Assembly: GCA_020912385.1 (NCBI GenBank)
Contig: CP087221.1
Coordinates: 372,001-436,000, forward strand
DNA length: 64,000 bases
Origin: Neofusicoccum parvum
Lineage: Eukaryota; Ascomycota; Dothideomycetes; Botryosphaeriales; Botryosphaeriaceae
Direction: 5' to 3'
Positions 4,769 to 61,362 of the stretch are shown one piece after another. A model generated the notes under the pieces. It ran no database searches, was not told the DNA's origin, and saw only the letters and a list, made by a program, of their open reading frames with translations. The translations under genes and the position numbers were made by a program. The first letter of the stretch is position 1; every line of letters begins with the position of its first letter.

Positions 4769-7700
4769 TCAAAGCACCAACACTCCCACGACACCCGCAA
4801 CTACAGCTCCCAAGCCCGTCGCCAACTTGCTTGCCGCACCCGTATACATCGGCGATCCGGCTGTCGTACCACTTGGCTTGTTGCCATACGACGACGACGA
4901 CAAAGACGGCTTTCCGATGGGCGTGTGCACCGGGATAGTGCCGTTCATGGTTGCGTTGTAGCTGGGCAGCATCGTAGACGCCGGGATGGGCGTGACCATG
5001 ACGGTCGAGATGTATACGGCCGGGGTAGAGGAGGAAGAGGGATACGCGTAGCCGCCCTCGACTCCCGAAGACGCGGGAAAGACGGTGGCGGTAGTGTACT
5101 TGGTGGAGGTTCCACCAACCACGGTGTAAGTGGTCATCTCGTACGGAGAGCCAGCAGGAGCAGAGACGGATGCGGAAGGCGCGTAGTGACCTGGAGCGCT
5201 GTTTGCCGGTGCGGATGGGTAAGCGCTCGGGGCACTTGGAGCGGGATATCCTGGCGCTCCACCTGCCGGGGCGGACGGGTAGGAACCGGACCCGCTAGGA
5301 ATCATGCTGCCAACTGGCACGGACGGAACGGGGTAGCCAGGCGCACCGCCTGCGGGAGCGGACGGCCCGGGTACAGCAGTCTGCTCAACGGGGCAGACTG
5401 TCGTGTATAGGGCGACGGTCTGGGTCACCATGGTCTCAGTCTTCGAACGCTCCGGGCAGTTGGGGACCGTGTCAGGGCACTTAGTGACGGTGAAGACCTG
5501 AGTAGAGTAGACCGTCGAGGTAGTCATGACGGAAGCTGACGCAGCCGAGGTCATCGCCGGTCCGGACTGAGCCATGGGAACGCTCGTAGTATACACAGCG
5601 TAAGTAGTGGTCATGATAGAGGTAGTCATCGACTTTGCAGGGCAGTTGGAGACGGTCTCGGGGCATTTGGTGACGGTGACGATTTCCGTGGTGTAAACAG
5701 TAGATGGGCCGTGAGTCACAGAGGCGGCGCCAGTCTGACCATTGACTCCTGAGCTCGCAGCTGGAGTAGTGGCTCCAGGAGAACCGCCGGCCGGGGCAGA
5801 GACAGCAGGCATGCCATGAGAATCGCCGCCGCTGGGGATGGGCATAGGATGTCCGGGAGCAGGAGTATCCTCAGGGCTGTACACAGGCGTGTGCTCGGGA
5901 GTTTGGGCAGGCGCATTTCCAGGAGCATGCTCCGGAATGTGGTCTGGGGTCTGCATCGGAGGCATTTGCATAGGAGGAGTCTCAATAGCCGGAGGCGTCT
6001 GCATTGGTGGCGTTTGGGCAGGATGGCCTTCACCGCCGTTCGGAGGCATTTGCATGGGAGGAGTCTGGACAACCGGAGGAGTCTGCATAGGAGGAGTCTC
6101 AACAGCTGGGGGCGTTTGGACTGGCGTCATCTGCATGGGAGGGGTCTCGATGGCTGGAGGTGTCTGCACTGCCGGCGTCTGAGCCGGATGGTCTTCGCCA
6201 CCATTGTGAGGCTGATCATCACCAGTGGGTGGGGTTTGATCACCGTTGCCTGTGGGAGGAACCTCTGCACCGCCGTTTGCCGGAGGAGTTTGATCGCTGC
6301 CGGTAGCCGGAGGCTGATTTCCGCCAGCTGAAGGGGTGTTATCCTTGTCGCCACCAGATGACGGAGCATTGTCCGCAGGCGTGTTGTCATTGCCAGATGA
6401 GGGGGTGTTTTCCGAAGGAGTATTGTCACCACCAGCCGAAGGAGTATTGCTGTCACCGGACGAAGGAGTATTGTCACCACCAGTTGTAGGAGTATTATCC
6501 GAAGGGGTGCTGTCCACAGGAGTATTATCGCCACCAGATGAGGGTGTGTTGTCCGAGGGAGTGTTGCCAGAAGGCGTGTTGTCCGAGGGAGTATTGTCAG
6601 AAGGCGTGTTGTCAGAAGGCGTGTTGTCCGAGGGAGTGTTATCCGAGGGAGTGTTATCCGAGGGAGTATTGTCCGAGGGAGTGTTGTCCGAGGGATTGTT
6701 GTCCGAGGGCGTGTTGCCAGACGGCGTGTTGTCAGAGGGCGTGTTGCCAGACGGCGTGTTGTCAGAAGGCGTGTTGTCAGACGGCGTGTTGTCAGAAGGC
6801 GTGTTGTCCGAGGGAGTGTTGTCCGAGGGCGTGTTGCCAGACGGCGTGTTGTCAGACGGCGTGTTGTCAGAAGGCGTGTTGTCCGAGGGAGTGTTGTCCG
6901 AGGGAGTGTTGTCCGAGGGCGTGTTGCCAGACGGCGTGTTGTCAGACGGCGTGTTGTCAGAAGGCGTGTTGTCCGAGGGAGTGTTGTCCGAGGGCGTGTT
7001 GCCAGACGGCGTGTTGTCTGAAGGAGTGTTGTCACCACCGGACGAGGGAGTATTGTCAGAAGGAGTGTTGTCTGAAGGAGTGTTGTCTGAAGGAGTGTTG
7101 TCTGAAGGAGTGTTGTCTGAAGGAGTGTTGTCTGAAGGAGTGTTGTCTGAAGGAGTGTTGTCTGAAGGAGTGTTGTCTGAGGGAGTATTATCACCACCGG
7201 ATGAGGGAGTGTTGTTAGAAGGAGTGTTGTCGCCACCGGACGAGGGAGTGTTATCAGAAGGCGTGTTGTCGGAAGGCGTATTGTCGGAAGGCGTGTTGTT
7301 AGAAGGTGTATTGTCAGCAGGGGTGTTGCCACCAGATGAAGGTGTGTTGTCGGTAGGAGTGCTGTCGCCACCAGAAGGAGTCTGGCCAGTGGAAATCGTG
7401 CCTGTGCAGGTCACAGGGTTGGAAGAGCCCGCAAGACCACAGTTGTCCTTGTAGCAACCGCAAGCATTTTGGTAAGAGCTGAAAAGATCCAGCTTGGCGT
7501 CGACACAGACACTCAAGCCCTGATTCTGCTTACTCTTGATGCAAGCCGTAGCCTCGAGGTTGATAAGAGCGAAGTTGGCGCAGCGACATTGCGGGCTATC
7601 GCTCACACACAGCTTAGCAACGGCCTCGAGCCAGCAGTCTTTGCCACATCCATCTTCAGGGGCCTTAGGAGCAGTGCAGGTCGATGACGGAGCATCGCAG

Positions 7701-8975
7701 AAAGTCGTACCGATGGATGGAGGGAATGTGAATCCACCGATCCCGATGCTGCCAGTGATTTCACCACTTCCGGTGATTCCACCAGTGCTTCCACCGTTGC
7801 CAGTGATTCCACCAGTGATTTCACCAGTGACTCCACCAGTGACTCCACCATTGCCAGTGATTTCCCCGGTGCTTCCGCCGGTGTTTCCGCCAGTGCTCCC
7901 GCCAGTGCTCCCGCCAGTGCTCCCGCCAGTGCTGCCGCCAGTGCTTCCGCCAGTGCTGCCGCCGGTGCTGCCGCCGGTGCTGCCACCAGTGCTTCCACCA
8001 TTTCCAGTGTCTCCGCCAGTACTGGCGCAGTTGCCAGACTTCTGGGCGCTCTCGATGCAGGCGCAAGACTCATCCAAGGTGCTGCCGAAGAGGTTGAGGT
8101 CAACGTCAACGCAAACGTTGAGAGGAACGAGGTCCACGCAAGCGTCGACCTGGGCCTTCAGGAAAACCGAGTTCTGGCAACGGCATTCAGGAGTGTCGTT
8201 GATGCAGACCTCAGCGAGAGCCTTGAGGAAGCACTGGTCGCGGCAGCCGCCGGGAGAGGCGGGGGCCTTGCAGGTGGCGCCGCAGGTAGTGATAGTAGCA
8301 GGAGCGCTCGTAGTGCTTCCACCGTTTCCAGTAACTCCACCAGTGATGCCACCTGTGATTCCACCAGTGACTCCGCCGTTTCCAGTGACTCCGCCGTTTC
8401 CAGTGACTCCGCCGTTTCCAGTGACTCCACCGTTTCCAGTGACTCCACCGTTTCCAGTGACTCCACCATTTCCAGTGACTCCACCATTTCCTGGGGGTGT
8501 GTTGCTCGAAGAACCCGGGGTGGTTGATCTCGGAGTGTTCCGTGGGCCGCAAACGTGGTCGGAGCTGCTCTTTGATGTGCCAATGGTACTCTTGAGCGAG
8601 CACTGCTTGGTGCTACGGCACCACGAGACGCCAACGCAGTTGTCATGGTCTTCGCAGACGTCCATGCAGGCATCGAAGGTGTCCTTGGAACATGCGGTAC
8701 CATCAATCTGCCCATAGGTTGTCAGCATAGATAAAAGAAGCGACTCAAGTAAGCGAACTCACGTCCTTCCCCCCGTCGTAGTACGAGTTGCATTGGACCT
8801 GGAACTTTGAGCCCTTCTTGCAGGTGTAGGAAGCGCGGTCGTGGCTTGGACAAGAGACGGTAGTCCCAAAGGAAATGGATGATCTGGCGCCGCCGCTGAA
8901 GTGTGGCCAGGTGGGTGTGGCCATGCTGCTCGTGATCAGCGCGGCGGCAGCCAGAGTCTTGAGAAGCGGTGCCAT
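4769..8975 (-). CDS. Giant GPI-anchored cell-wall protein: PAN-like domain, two CFEM-like domains, tandem repeats
   Basis: Two exons (8763-8975; 4769-8707) around a 55-nt intron with a CTGAC branch site, 1383 aa. Order: signal peptide; a PAN/apple-like Cys module (about residues 40-125, with VSCP, CMDVCEDHDNCVGVSWC); GNGGVT repeats; CFEM-like domain 1 (CRDQCFLKALAEVCINDTPECRC); GGST repeats; CFEM-like domain 2 (CGKDCWLEAVAKLCVSDSPQCRC); about 300 residues of NTPSD pentapeptides; Pro-rich QTPP repeats; two copies of a module with VTVTKCP; and a hydrophobic GPI-type C-terminus (LATGLGAVVAGVVGVLVL). Both Cys domains fit the CFEM pattern Cx3Cx8C-xxD-CxC. CFEM proteins act in haem or iron uptake or as surface sensors and effectors; the repeat stalk suggests an adhesin-like wall protein. 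Function is inferred from architecture. Confidence 0.88.
6399..7345 (-). repeat. 15-bp minisatellite encoding NTPSD pentapeptides
   Basis: Imperfect 15-bp units encode NTPSD, NTPSG or NTPAD, occasionally interrupted by SSGGD. Three sub-blocks with identical internal variants recur near 6690, 6830 and 6930, pointing to duplication of higher-order units of about 100-120 bp. Period is a multiple of three, so unit gain or loss keeps the frame. Confidence 0.9.
7868..8003 (-). repeat. 12-bp repeat encoding GGST
   Basis: About ten tandem GGST/GGNT units inside the wall-protein gene, separating the first CFEM-like domain from the GEIT-rich linker. Confidence 0.8.
8323..8495 (-). repeat. 18-bp repeat encoding GNGGVT
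   Basis: Seven near-identical GNGGVT hexapeptides followed by GGIT/GGVT variants between the PAN-like module and the first CFEM-like domain. Confidence 0.8.
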
Positions 8976-55046: not shown

Positions 55047-56942
55047 GATGGGCTAGTGAGCGTCTGTTGTCCGGCAACTGATGAGCAGGAAACCGAGGGG
55101 GTCTGAAGCAGTCTTATACGCGCCGGCAGCCATCGGCCGGCAGCAGCGGGCGTCTACAATGTTTCCCCTTCCGTCGACATTAGATTGAAACAAGATTGTT
55201 TCCAGGAACCCGCTCAGTGCTTCATGCATGCACAACACGCCCGCAGGTGGCTTGTTTGAGAGCCTCGTCCTGACTCTTCCGGTCCCGTCCAGGTACTCGC
55301 TGTGTAGATCCCGCACAGCACGCCTCTCCGGCCAATGGGGTGAGGGTCACGGAGTCGCGGTCCGGAGTAATGAAGCCCAGTCCTGTGATTTCCGGGATGT
55401 TGTCCCTGAGGCTCATGCAGGCGGTGACGCTCCCCGCGATGGACTGACGTAGGACGAGCATGGCTGCCAGTGGCTCATCACCGCCTGACCGCGAGAATGC
55501 GTTAGGGCCATTCCGCTGGGCGTGCCGGGTCCGGGGCCGCTGTTCCAGTCGTGTCCGTTTCATGAGCCAAGCGAGGTGGAGAATCTGGGGAACACGCTGC
55601 AAACTGCAAGCAATCAAGCGCACTGCTGTCAGTCGACATGGGCGGCAAGCCACGGATCGGCTGCTTGGCGGAGGGGCGTTTCTGGGCTGCATAGGGCGGC
55701 GAGTCAAATCTGCCATGGAAAAATAGCTGCCGTTCGCGGCGCAATCTATTCGAGATCTGCAAGGTTGCCGCTCGCGCTTGTGATCCATCGCTATGCAAGA
55801 AAGTAGCTGCCGACGCCTATTCCACAAAGGAAGCGCGGTACTCTAAGGGTGCAGATGTGCACAGAACCGAACAGTGGACTTTGCTGGCGGCAGTGCGCGC
55901 GCGGCCGGATCAAGCGGGAATGCTTCCCGTGCATTCGTCGACGCCGGTCTTGCGGCCGGCGGCGGCGATCGTGGCAACAAAAGAAAGCAGGAGAACAAGT
56001 CGACAGTTCAGGTTCACCGTGTGCGGTGTCTGCCGCGGCTGAGATTGAAGGGATGCTTGACTCACGGCAAAATCGCCAGCACGTAGTAGCTGCGAAACCG
56101 CGGTGCTGGGCCGCATTTGTCCGTCCAGGGGCTTCCCGCGCACCACGAAACAAGGTGGCAGGGCCTGGGACAGAGGAAGTGGATGCGGATGAAGTCGTGT
56201 TTGGTAGGGCCAATCCGGCTAAGCTCGAGTCATCAAACGCCCGGCCTCGGCGGCAACGCTTCACAAAGCTTGCGGAGCAAACGAGCGCCCCCTTCATCAG
56301 CCGCCGAGGCACCAAGGATCGGGTGAGCATCACCTGGCGTCCGTTGTCCCCTGTGGGCCCGGCTTGGCCTACAAAAAGCCCTCTTCCCCACAAAATGCAG
56401 GCGCGTCGGTTCTCTTGGTTTTCTGCGCCGCGTACGGCTCGGTCCGTCGCCGATATGGCTTATCGCCCATAGTCTCCCTTCCGCCACCAACGAGGTTTGG
56501 ACGCAAGGCGGCCCACCGCATGTACAGGAGTCCGGACTTGACGTTGCGGCGACCGGCCCGTCGAGGAGCGCACGGCAGCACCGAGATCCGCGCGGACTGC
56601 GGCCTGTCTGGCGGGCCAGAGTTGCATACGAACTGCACAGGCCCTCCGCCTTTTTGCTAGTTTTTCGAGCGGGTACGACCCATCAGGGGTACTTGGTTGG
56701 AGTTTCTCTGATGCCGCAACGCCGAGCCACCACGCCGTGGCCAAGCAGCACTTCACAAGTTTGGATCACGCACAGGAGCTTCGACTACAGATTCGAACGA
56801 CATCCACACCTTTGGCGCAAGGTGGCCGTGCTGTGGCGGGCATCGTTGCGGTACGGTGTGGGAGACCACCCCGTGCATCCCCAGCCAAAAAGGATGACAC
56901 TGAGAAGAGCAGAGCCCGACACCAATGCAAAAAGAAGGATAT
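55047..56942. other. Upstream region of the GH7 gene
   Basis: 1.9 kb of normal-GC sequence with no credible gene. It contains the cellobiohydrolase promoter. I did not find a clustered set of cellulase-activator sites by eye; a single GGCTAAG lies near 56217. Confidence 0.4.
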
Positions 56943-57105
56943 TGAGAAGAGTGGGACTCGAACCCACGAAGGTTACCCAACTAGTAAACCCTATCTTCGG
57001 GACTCTTTTCAGAAGACCTGAAACTAGCCTGGTAATTGTTAGGTCATGATCGATGGCTGAGTGTTGTAGTGGTCACTTACGCCATAACCGCTCGGCCATC
57101 TTCCC
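56943..57105 (-). tRNA. tRNA-Leu(CAG) with two intervening sequences
   Basis: After removal of two inserts an 81-nt class II cloverleaf appears. Acceptor GGGAAGA pairs with TCTTCTC (one G-T), and A is the discriminator, as in tRNA-Leu. The D arm is GCC/GGC with loop GAGCGGTTAT, then G26. The anticodon stem is CTAGT/ACTAG with loop TTCAGG-T (anticodon CAG, 57018-57020). The variable arm is TTGGGTAACCTTC, and the T arm GTGGG-TTCGAGT-CCCAC has a good B box. Insert one (56987-57016, 30 nt) sits after position 37, the universal site of nuclear tRNA introns, and its CTGAA pairs with the anticodon-loop TTCAG. Insert two (57029-57080) is described separately. The identification rests on base-pairing that closes only when both inserts are removed. 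Confidence 0.85.
57029..57080 (-). other. 52-nt spliceosomal-type intron inside the tRNA-Leu gene
   Basis: Begins GTAAGTG, contains CCTAAC 14 nt before its end and ends ACCAG, the fungal consensus for 5' splice site, branch site and 3' splice site. Length equals that of mRNA introns in this window. It interrupts the tRNA between positions 25 and 26 (or 26 and 27), a site where nuclear tRNA introns do not occur, and it lacks a bulge-helix-bulge. Confidence 0.75.
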
Positions 57106-57559
57106 TTAGTGACGGGGCTCGCTTAAAATCAAACACTATAATATCAATGCTGAAATTCCCTCTACATACTATTAGAGACGTAAATAAAAATATAATTTAA
57201 TCCTAAGTCTAAGACTAAAAACGAGGTACTTTATAAGTATCTACTAAGAGAGTTAAAAGAGATAATTTAATTTTTATTTATATCTCTATAAGTCTAAGAC
57301 TAGAAGAATAAAATACTCTAAAAATACCTACTAAAAGACTTTAAGACCCAGCGGCTAGAAGAGAACTAGGGAGGTTACGCTCCCCCCCCCCCAAAACCCC
57401 TCTTTAAGTCCCTACTAAGTACCCCTAGGCGCGCCTAGTTTCTAGAATCTAGTATAAAACGGTGCCCTTTTCTAAACTCCTTTAGTAAAACTACTAAGTT
57501 CTATCTAAAAGCCCTCTCCTTCTAGAATTTTAGATTTAACTAGCCTAGTCCCACTTAAT

Positions 57560-59600: not shown

Positions 59601-61136
59601 ATAGAGATAGATAGATAAATTCATTTCTTCCCGATATAGCTCCCTTACGGGTCCATGCGGGGTTGGCTATCTGTAGTTATTTTACACGAGGGGGAAAACC
59701 TTTTCGCCTGGCAAAAACCCCTCCTCTCGATCTAGGTATGATGTCCAATTCTGGTTCTGTTTTCCCTTCTTACCGGTAGCGGCTGCTGTAGCAGCCCTAC
59801 ATTCACCTACTAGCCCTATCCCTTCAGCCCTTATCCTCGTAGTTGTCCGGGTCCGAGTAGTCCTGGTGGTCCTCCTGGTTCCTCTTCCTGGCTGTCCTCC
59901 TGGATTAATTCCCTGGCCAGGCTAAACTGCTTGAGCAGCCCTAGGCATAAGAACCAGTCTGTTGCTGCTTTGACTCCCTTTTTTGTAGAGAGAAGGGAGT
60001 GGTAGTCTGTAGTTTCCGCCTTTTGGAGCATCTGTGCCCTACCCTGTTGGAAGTGGGGGCAGAAGAGGAGGATGTGCTTTGGGGTTTGCCTATGCCAGCC
60101 GCATGGGCAGGCGGGGCTGGGGTGTCCTGGCACCTTGCGCTTAGAGAGGAAGTCCTCCAGCCCAATATGCTCAGTACGCAGTAGAGTGGCGAGTGTGCTC
60201 TGTGGCTTGGACAGTTCGCTGTGAATTTGTCGAATCTTTGGGTTCCACTGTGTGCTCTGGGCCACTGGCCTGTGCCGCCTTTCCTGGCTAGTGTGCTTTG
60301 TCCATCTCTTCTTCCACTTCTTCCTACATGCTATGCGTAACCTTGTTCGCTCCGGGAGGGTAGGGCAGCTGCTGAGAAGGGAGGTTACCCTTGCTCTGAG
60401 TAGGGTTCTTCGAGCTGGGCCGGCTGGGCCTCTAGCGCCCAGAGTAGCCCGGGCTATCTGTTTGATGCTCTGGCAAGTTTCCTCTACCACTGCTGCTACT
60501 GGGCCATCCCTAGCCCTAATAGTCTGGGCTAGTGTTAGTTCATCCAGGTGGAGTGAGAGCGGGGGGATTCCCGTCTCATGCTCCAAGGTTTGTGTGCTGG
60601 TTGACTTGTACGCCCCTGAGATGGTGCGTAGGCACTGGTTTTGGATCTTCTGCAGTGGCTGGATGGCTGTTTTCCTCCACCCTGGGATCCCCTCCGGGAC
60701 ATGCCACACCCCGCAGCCGTAGGTGAGGACTGGCCTCACCACTGCTGTATAGATATGACGGGCTTTAGTAAATGAGGCTCCCCAGGTGGATGCTGCGAGT
60801 CTAGAGAGGGATGTGCACTGCTTGAGTGCTCTAGCCCTAGTTTCCCTAATGTGAGGTCCCCATCTCAGCTTGTTATCTACATGGACTCCTAGGATCTTGA
60901 CTGTAGGTTCTGGGTGTCCCGCAAATCCCGGGATGCGGATTCCTACTGCCATGTTGAATCTCTTTGACCTCCTCGTGAAGTGAACGAGATGGTACTTGTC
61001 AGGTGAGAAGGTCGACCCGTGGGTAGCTGCCCAGTGCTCGCAGGTTCTATTAGCCTCCTCTAGCGTCCTACAGTTTTGTTCTGTGGATCTACTAAATGTA
61101 AGGATGTTGGTATCGTCTACAAAGCCAAGGGGGAAA
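59601..61136 (-). mobile_element. 5'-truncated Tad-like LINE (copy 2), open and not RIP-degraded
   Basis: A 1.54-kb insertion on the minus strand between perfect 15-bp direct repeats, with 3' UTR and TATC/TCTA tail like copy 1. It is truncated just upstream of the RT active-site motif. Its GC content and open frame contrast with the TA-rich DNA on both sides. Confidence 0.9.
59831..61136 (-). pseudogene. LINE reverse transcriptase C-terminal fragment
   Basis: About 435 codons without a stop. Begins at the polymerase motif FVDDTN (Y/FxDD catalytic box), then LGVHVDNKLRWGPHI, RLAASTWG, YGCGVWHVPEG, LEHETGIPPLSLHLDELTLAQT, and the C-terminal Cys/His motif CPCGWHRQTPKHILLFCPHF. The first 35 bp of the longer open frame (61137-61171) are host flank. 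Lacks the endonuclease and RT N-terminus, so it cannot retrotranspose by itself. Confidence 0.92.
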
Positions 61137-61151
61137 ACACTATAATAGTAG
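61137..61151 (+). repeat. Target-site duplication of LINE copy 2, right
   Basis: Exact second copy of the 15-bp duplication. Confidence 0.85.
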
Positions 61152-61362
61152 GGGTAATTACCTATATTCATTCTCTAAATACGCTAATTATAAAGGCTTA
61201 CACTATAGTAATAACTCTACATATAAGATTAGGCCCCAACATTTTAATTAACCGTATTTCCTACCTTCCCTATATTTAATTTCCTACTAAAGTACCCTAA
61301 TACTCCTCTTCTTATTTTTTTTATTAATTTTCCCACTTAAAAAGCAAGCCGTTAAGTATATC

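Follow-up and report, generated by a model that had tools for sequence, protein, structure and literature searches.

Probable spliceosomal introns in nuclear tRNA genes of Neofusicoccum parvum, including the three tRNA-Leu(CAG) genes found

Background

The introns of nuclear tRNA genes and spliceosomal introns are usually treated as separate subjects, with different enzymes and different polymerases involved. Introns of the mRNA type are also present in the U6 snRNA genes of fungi other than Schizosaccharomyces pombe, and were reportedly described in 1993 in the nuclear rRNA genes of ascomycetes, rRNA genes being transcribed by Pol I. The U6 RNA of S. pombe, a Pol III RNA, contains a spliced mRNA-type intron (PMC10484740). 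Here we describe a tRNA-Leu(CAG) gene of the ascomycete Neofusicoccum parvum with a canonical tRNA intron and, upstream of it, a 52-nt insert. Very likely the gene is functional and the insert a spliceosomal intron of the U2 type; at least ten nuclear tRNA genes of this fungus are interrupted in this way.

Results and discussion

The tRNA-Leu(CAG) gene of the window

The window, a stretch of 64,000 nt corresponding to C16:372001-436000 of a 44-Mb genome in 18 contigs, contains on its minus strand a tRNA-Leu(CAG) gene whose 163 nt run from position 1 through the discriminator base (56943..57105), delimited by sequence reading, BLAST and ARAGORN. All parts of the gene lie on the same strand. The 5′ exon, with the 5′ strand of the acceptor stem and the D arm (tRNA positions 1-25, 57081..57105), is followed at 25/26 by the 52-nt putative mRNA-type (spliceosomal) intron (57029..57080), of the form GTAAGT...CTAAC...CCAG, with a predicted 5′ splice site GTAAGT (57075..57080), a branch-point motif CTAAC (57038..57042, 10 nt counted to the intron end) and a predicted 3′ splice site CAG (57029..57031). 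The middle exon (57017..57028) comprises position 26, the 5′ side of the anticodon stem and the loop through G37, including the anticodon CAG (57018..57020), and is separated by a canonical tRNA intron of 30 nt at 37/38 (56987..57016), containing a CTGAA complementary to TTCAG, from the 3′ exon (56943..56986), which supplies position 38, the 3′ side of the anticodon stem, the long variable region, the T arm and the 3′ strand of the acceptor stem. By comparison with the consensus, we take TGGCCGAGCGG (57088..57098) to be the A box and GGTTCGAGTCC (56954..56964) the B box of the internal promoter, and a T5 run resembling a Pol III terminator (56929..56933) has its first T 10 nt past the gene end.

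Once the 52 nt are taken out, and only then, the gene offers a complete cloverleaf with its anticodon loop, together with both promoter boxes and a T-run. An earlier note on this DNA had read it as a class II tRNA-Leu(CAG) emerging only after two deletions, and its coordinates and sequence were as described, both for the 30-nt segment as an ordinary 37/38 intron with CTGAA/TTCAG pairing and for the GTAAGT...CTAAC...CAG insert between D arm and anticodon stem, which we place at 25/26. In a gene-finder comparison with and without the 52 nt, ARAGORN read the shortened gene as Leu(CAG), its 30-nt intron lying at 37/38, while the deposited gene, with introns allowed, yielded only a tRNA-Gly(ACC) with an 80-nt 'intron'. 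No tRNA was reported in the window by ARAGORN without introns or by Rfam at its gathering score. At E ≤ 1, the Rfam tRNA model matched the uncut Leu(CAG) copy on contig C5 (34.3 bits, cut-off 29), with a 94-nt skip from the D arm to the 3′ part, and left the copies on C16 and C17 unmatched. The best uncut reading of the window gene by our own cloverleaf parser lacked T33, and little could be learnt from folding the unspliced gene (z -0.85).

An A+T-rich stretch that looks affected by RIP adjoins the gene (window 57150-57500, by eye), with a reverse-transcriptase-like open frame beyond it (59831-61174, by eye). Elsewhere in the window, the minus strand of 4769-8758 holds an open frame of 1,329 codons with long SDNTP-type repeat runs, perhaps encoding a cell-surface protein.

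The Leu(CAG) gene family

Whole-gene BLAST of the 44-Mb genome returned two further Leu(CAG) copies, on C17 and C5, and the insert was located at the same site (25|26) in 3/3 Leu(CAG) genes found. The C17 and C5 inserts measure 56 and 55 nt, each of the form GTAAGT...CTAACAAC...YAG, and GTAAGT, CTAACAA and the terminal AG are kept in all three inserts. Without their inserts the C5 and C17 genes are identical across 110 nt, while the inserts themselves match in 45/60 aligned columns. Identity of the insert bodies was 66% for C5/C17, 63% for C16/C17 and 56% for C16/C5. Shuffled C16/C5 bodies averaged 51%, with the 95th percentile at 59%, so the similarity of the C16 insert body is near or slightly over chance. 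The acceptor stems of the C16 and C5 genes differ by two-sided changes at 3-70, 4-69 and 7-66 which keep the pairing. Identical exons combined with drifting inserts in which the splice signals are kept form the pattern that would be expected of working tRNAs.

BLAST of the genome with an insert-free query found no intact Leu(CAG) gene, as the matches on C5 and C17 are interrupted where the insert lies and the one on C16 starts after it; Leu(CAA) matched this query at 73%. Three pattern searches of the genome gave corresponding results. The D-arm pattern with at most one mismatch had 34 matches (30/34 loci scanned with the parser, 10 inspected), among which the CAG genes seen were the three only; CTAGTTTCAGG had five matches, the three Leu(CAG) genes and two places which by eye are not tRNAs; and TTCAG with a B box 18-78 nt further on had 23 matches, with an ARAGORN tRNA in 5/23, of which three are the Leu(CAG) genes. 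A Leu D arm followed by GTAWGT was not matched in the viral contigs scanned, and had one match in bacterial and archaeal contigs, in Novosphingobium, which by eye is not a tRNA.

Of the Leu codons counted in two reading frames of the window, CTG is the commonest (34/97 and 15/45). The failure of these searches to find an intact Leu(CAG) gene and the frequent use of CTG speak against the suggestion that this copy is silent and that other, intact genes provide the isoacceptor. A Leu(TAG) gene is present (L035), and since its tRNA might read CUG by wobble, this falls short of proving Leu(CAG) essential. The C16 gene was also considered as a lone pseudogene, which was rejected as all three copies found are interrupted.

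A partial census of interrupted tRNA genes

A cloverleaf parser which permits an intron only at 37/38 was run on the retrieved sequence. Layouts were picked by tRNA features and not by GT-AG, and the ends of inserts were then set with the GT-AG reading, a deletion scan and paralogs in view. The 91 tRNA-like layouts comprised 73 canonical genes, ten genes with an off-site insert, and eight layouts set aside as non-tRNA (four copies of one repeat, L105, L126 and two chance layouts), which places an off-site insert in 10/83 tRNA genes of this partial census. A 37/38 intron is present in 54/73 canonical genes, reaching 71 nt in Gly(GCC), and the intron bodies differ between copies with the same anticodon. 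The scanned sequence contains 117 of the 141 GGTTCGANYCC sites of the genome, with 24 outside; 63/860 candidates of a genome Rfam search were scored; frequent anticodons, GTA, GTT and AAT among them, are absent from the census; and the parser misses genes with other B boxes, such as the tRNA-Met of L014, which ARAGORN finds. The ten interrupted genes are therefore a lower bound, and the fractions are those of the census rather than of the genome.

Next to the three Leu(CAG) genes (25|26; the window copy on C16 and those on C17 and C5), inserts were located in Ala(TGC) at 9|10 (C6:903354-903495), Ala(AGC) at 19|20 (C11:1558724-1558881), His(GTG) at 20|21 (C12:1020355-1020495), Arg(CCT) at 21|22 (L162, C10:1506204-1506332, minus strand), Val(CAC) at 24|25 (C16:1187407-1187565), and Glu(TTC) and Phe(GAA), both at 30|31 (C16:1282322-1282471 and C10:920927-921101, respectively), in tRNA numbering counted by hand from the sequences. 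None is at 37/38, and together they represent seven sites, from position 9 to 31, in eight gene lineages. All are 5′ of the anticodon, with none at positions 38 to 48, where the layout search could see them; insertions in the acceptor or T arm escape it. Contig C16, of 1.3 Mb, holds three of these ten genes (Leu-CAG, Val-CAC and Glu-TTC).

ARAGORN gave the expected isotype and anticodon for 8/10 genes after removal of the insert and for 0/10 before. The remaining two are the Ala genes: Ala(AGC) was called Ala with another intron placement and anticodon, and in Ala(TGC) the small intron was misplaced and the gene called Ser. Both carry a G3:T70 pair, the mark of alanine tRNAs. In Ala(TGC) the insert lies inside the A box and displaces its start, and there is a T6.T67 mismatch. 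The Arg(CCT) insert, located in the D loop, starts with GTAAGT and contains CTAAC, and ends in TTCG without an AG; this copy may have a broken 3′ splice site and perhaps be unspliceable, or its insert may be removed in a non-standard way. Some of the ten may be dying genes, and the phenomenon is independent of Arg(CCT) and Ala(TGC).

In a scan of single deletions of 35-74 nt in nine genes (Phe left out), the top-scoring sets consisted of 5 to 39 tied deletions and included a GT-AG deletion for 7/9 genes, those of C16 Leu and His also holding other GT-AG deletions. The top set of Arg(CCT) included GTAAGT...TTCG and no AG, and that of Ala(AGC) had no GT-AG deletion, its site resting on the uninterrupted paralog.

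About 5 nt past the Ala(AGC) gene of L167 we noted AGCTGGTTCAATTCCGGC, which resembles the T arm of another tRNA. An identical 179-nt sequence with a B-box-like motif occurs at L113, L121, L129 and L151 (twice on C1, and on C2 and C7), and B-box matches come in pairs with a spacing of 4,459 nt on C9, C12 (twice), C16 and C18; like the 179-nt sequence, these are dispersed repeats.

Paralogs with and without insert

For His, Glu, Phe and Ala(AGC) the census also contains genes of the same anticodon that lack an insert, and in three pairs the exons are identical. Alignment of Glu(TTC) L181 with L161 leaves one 58-nt gap, GTACGT...CCAG, with two equal placements; alignment of Ala(AGC) L167 with L077 leaves a 54-nt gap, GTAAGT...CCAG, which can slide by one base; and Phe(GAA) L022 has, by eye, an extra 65 nt relative to L015, CAG|GTAAGC...CAG|A. 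Otherwise only the 37/38 introns differ in all three pairs, which record the precise gain or loss of a GT...AG unit in a tRNA gene.

Splice signals of the inserts

A GTRNG start was present in 10/10 off-site inserts and in 0/54 ordinary 37/38 introns, the 5′ splice sites being GTAAGT in seven cases and GTGAGT, GTACGT and GTAAGC in one each. The end was YAG in 9/10, including all three Leu(CAG) inserts, with the exception of Arg(CCT), which ends in CG. A YTRAY motif was located 9-16 nt from the end in 10/10 inserts, compared with a mean of 0.74 and a maximum of 5/10 for shuffled cores (4,000 trials). None of the 54 ordinary tRNA introns had GT..AG in any of five registers, and the branch motif was present in 1/31 of them.

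With 49-65 nt, the off-site inserts are within the size range of mRNA introns. Candidate mRNA introns which join ORFs were 48-100 nt (searched 42-100), but this set is noisy, with 34 candidates compared to 19, 18 and 18 in three controls, so that about half are expected by chance. GTAAGT starts 4/34 of these candidates, one of the four being the C17 tRNA insert. The Sla2-like gene of the window encodes a protein 95-96% identical to Macrophomina and Diplodia proteins, in keeping with Botryosphaeriaceae. Five of its introns, placed with the help of a homologous protein and read by eye, have 5′ splice sites GTGCGT, GTAAAC, GTAGGC, GTGCGT and GTATCC and branch points CTGAC, CTGAC, GTGAT, TTGAC and CTGAT. 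The statement that the insert has exactly the mRNA-intron consensus of this genome was thus too strong, as the Sla2-like introns are weaker and the tRNA inserts nearer to GTAAGT/CTAAC: GTAAGT is used in 7/10 tRNA inserts (5/8 lineages), more than in the noisy mRNA set (4/34) or the Sla2-like gene (0/5). An RNA with neither a cap nor a Pol II tail may need strong splice sites, though the comparison is no more than suggestive.

The description of the insert as introner-like is unsupported by the single insert tested genome-wide, as BLAST of the Phe insert matched only itself. The remaining inserts were compared within the retrieved sequence only, where those of Ala(TGC) (L145) and Val(CAC) (L180) have an 11-mer in common, GCAATCCGAGT, at offsets 12 and 13, which suggests that the two inserts derive from one source or that one of these different tRNA genes has converted the other. 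The core of the earlier reading, an mRNA-type intron in a tRNA gene, gains support from the three Leu(CAG) genes and seven more tRNA genes, three of them with uninterrupted paralogs, although splicing as such is inferred.

Transcription signals and alternative explanations

Runs of T5-T6 begin 6-10 nt behind the three Leu(CAG) genes, Ala(TGC) and Arg(CCT). The first run of at least four T is at 47 nt for Phe(GAA), and no such run occurs in the 29 nt available downstream of Ala(AGC); for His, Val and Glu the downstream sequence is known for 12-14 nt only. Among canonical genes with at least 40 nt known downstream, 47/52 have such a run within 40 nt. The distance from A to B box is 101-147 nt in the interrupted genes versus 44-121 nt in the 73 canonical genes, and exceeds the canonical maximum of 121 nt in 7/10; TFIIIC tolerates distances in the 101-147 nt range.

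These signals bear on two other readings of the inserts. Spliceosomal splicing is normally tied to Pol II, and the wide spacing of the boxes could weaken Pol III initiation, which would both fit a tRNA excised from a longer Pol II transcript that is spliced like an mRNA. However, T5 runs follow all three Leu(CAG) genes within 6-10 nt and the A and B boxes of the window gene are intact, and as Pol II is not required for splicing of U6 in S. pombe (PMC10484740), we consider the chance of a Pol II origin close to negligible. The widened spacing would also fit the possibility that the interrupted genes are inactive, with introns or other DNA having inserted into genes that are now decaying. The Arg(CCT) insert without a 3′ AG, the split A box and T.T mismatch of Ala(TGC), and the insert-free genes that share the anticodons of His, Glu, Phe and Ala(AGC) are in favour of decay, but it accounts poorly for the Leu(CAG) family, where the three genes found are all interrupted and no intact one was found, the C5 and C17 exons are identical though their insert bodies have diverged, the acceptor stem of C16 is kept by two-sided changes, and the splice signals are kept in divergent inserts. 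Inactivity is thus very unlikely as an explanation of the inserts.

A different proposal leaves the genes active and the spliceosome out, the inserts being ectopic introns of the bulge-helix-bulge (BHB) type cut by the tRNA endonuclease, with GT...AG ends that are incidental. In algae and nucleomorphs tRNA introns can indeed be ectopic and multiple, and their locations in the D-loop and the anticodon stem resemble some of those seen here (PMC3978253). BHB introns have no need, however, of the GTRNG start and the branch motif at mRNA-intron spacing (10/10) or the YAG end (9/10), and GTRNG is found in 0/54 ordinary introns. A central helix with four of four pairs beside the ends was present in 0/10 inserts, in a test of low power, as it was found in 12/54 canonical introns and 9% of shuffles. 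We regard this proposal as extremely unlikely, and continue with the spliceosomal reading.

Proposed processing and its implications

In the proposed pathway, Pol III would transcribe the whole Leu(CAG) gene, as suggested by its A box, B box and T-run, after which the nuclear spliceosome would recognise GUAAGU, CUAAC and YAG and join position 25 to 26. Once the 52 nt are gone the pre-tRNA could fold, and the tRNA splicing endonuclease would then cut the 30-nt intron at 37/38, in line with its position and the CTGAA/TTCAG complementarity. This order, spliceosome before endonuclease, is probably fixed, since the endonuclease is thought to measure from the folded tRNA body, which the 52 nt would disrupt, and in yeasts sits outside the nucleus. 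The endonuclease acts at the mitochondrial surface in both budding and fission yeast (PMC6391926), and if this is also the case here, the nuclear spliceosome must act first.

With seven sites between positions 9 and 31 and eight gene lineages, the inserts probably arose several times. It is likely that in this group of fungi spliceosomal introns have entered tRNA genes repeatedly (at least eight lineages, seven positions, all 5′ of the anticodon) and that at least one isoacceptor, Leu(CAG), depends on the spliceosome and then the endonuclease acting on one Pol III transcript. The cell would then probably need two unrelated splicing machines for one tRNA, a dual function that we infer from sequence with high but incomplete confidence.

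If the inserts are spliced, the spliceosome would routinely handle short, uncapped Pol III transcripts on their way to essential RNAs, and the supply of tRNA would be coupled to spliceosome activity. The three paralog pairs, with identical exons and presence or absence of the insert, offer a clear-cut instance of a spliceosomal intron being gained or lost. Finally, such genes can be overlooked or wrongly named by tRNA gene finders, as illustrated by ARAGORN, which called the three Leu(CAG) genes tRNA-Gly, and isoacceptors that seem 'missing' from fungal genomes may be hidden in this way.

Comparison with known systems

Among the closest systems described is U6 of S. pombe, with which the tRNA inserts would share the presence of a spliceosomal intron in a fungal gene for a non-coding RNA made by Pol III (PMC10484740). 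They differ in that the host is a tRNA and that several different tRNA genes are affected, and the origin proposed for the U6 intron, reverse splicing near the catalytic nucleotides of U6, is not transferable to tRNA inserts. The N. parvum genome was checked for introns in U6, and its three U6-like copies (L108, L109 and L110) are all uninterrupted; the L110 copy has a divergent 3′ part and is perhaps truncated.

Like canonical 37/38 introns, the inserts are located in nuclear pre-tRNAs, and the Leu(CAG) genes carry one of each kind; unlike canonical introns, of which 0/54 have GT..AG, they lie between positions 9 and 31 and have the GTRNG, branch and YAG signals. Off-site positions, including the D-loop and the anticodon stem, are shared with the ectopic BHB introns of archaea, Cyanidioschyzon merolae and the cryptomonad nucleomorph, but these are described as endonuclease substrates with a BHB-type structure, and not as having mRNA splice signals (PMC3978253).

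A search of open-licence literature, at the level of titles and abstract openings, gave no spliceosomal introns in nuclear tRNA genes, and an earlier description in a subscription journal is possible. The rRNA-gene introns of ascomycetes are, as here, mRNA-type introns in a gene for a structural RNA, but their host is a Pol I-transcribed rRNA and not a tRNA. The spliceosomal intron is therefore known as a kind, and it is several nuclear tRNA genes as its host which appear to be new.
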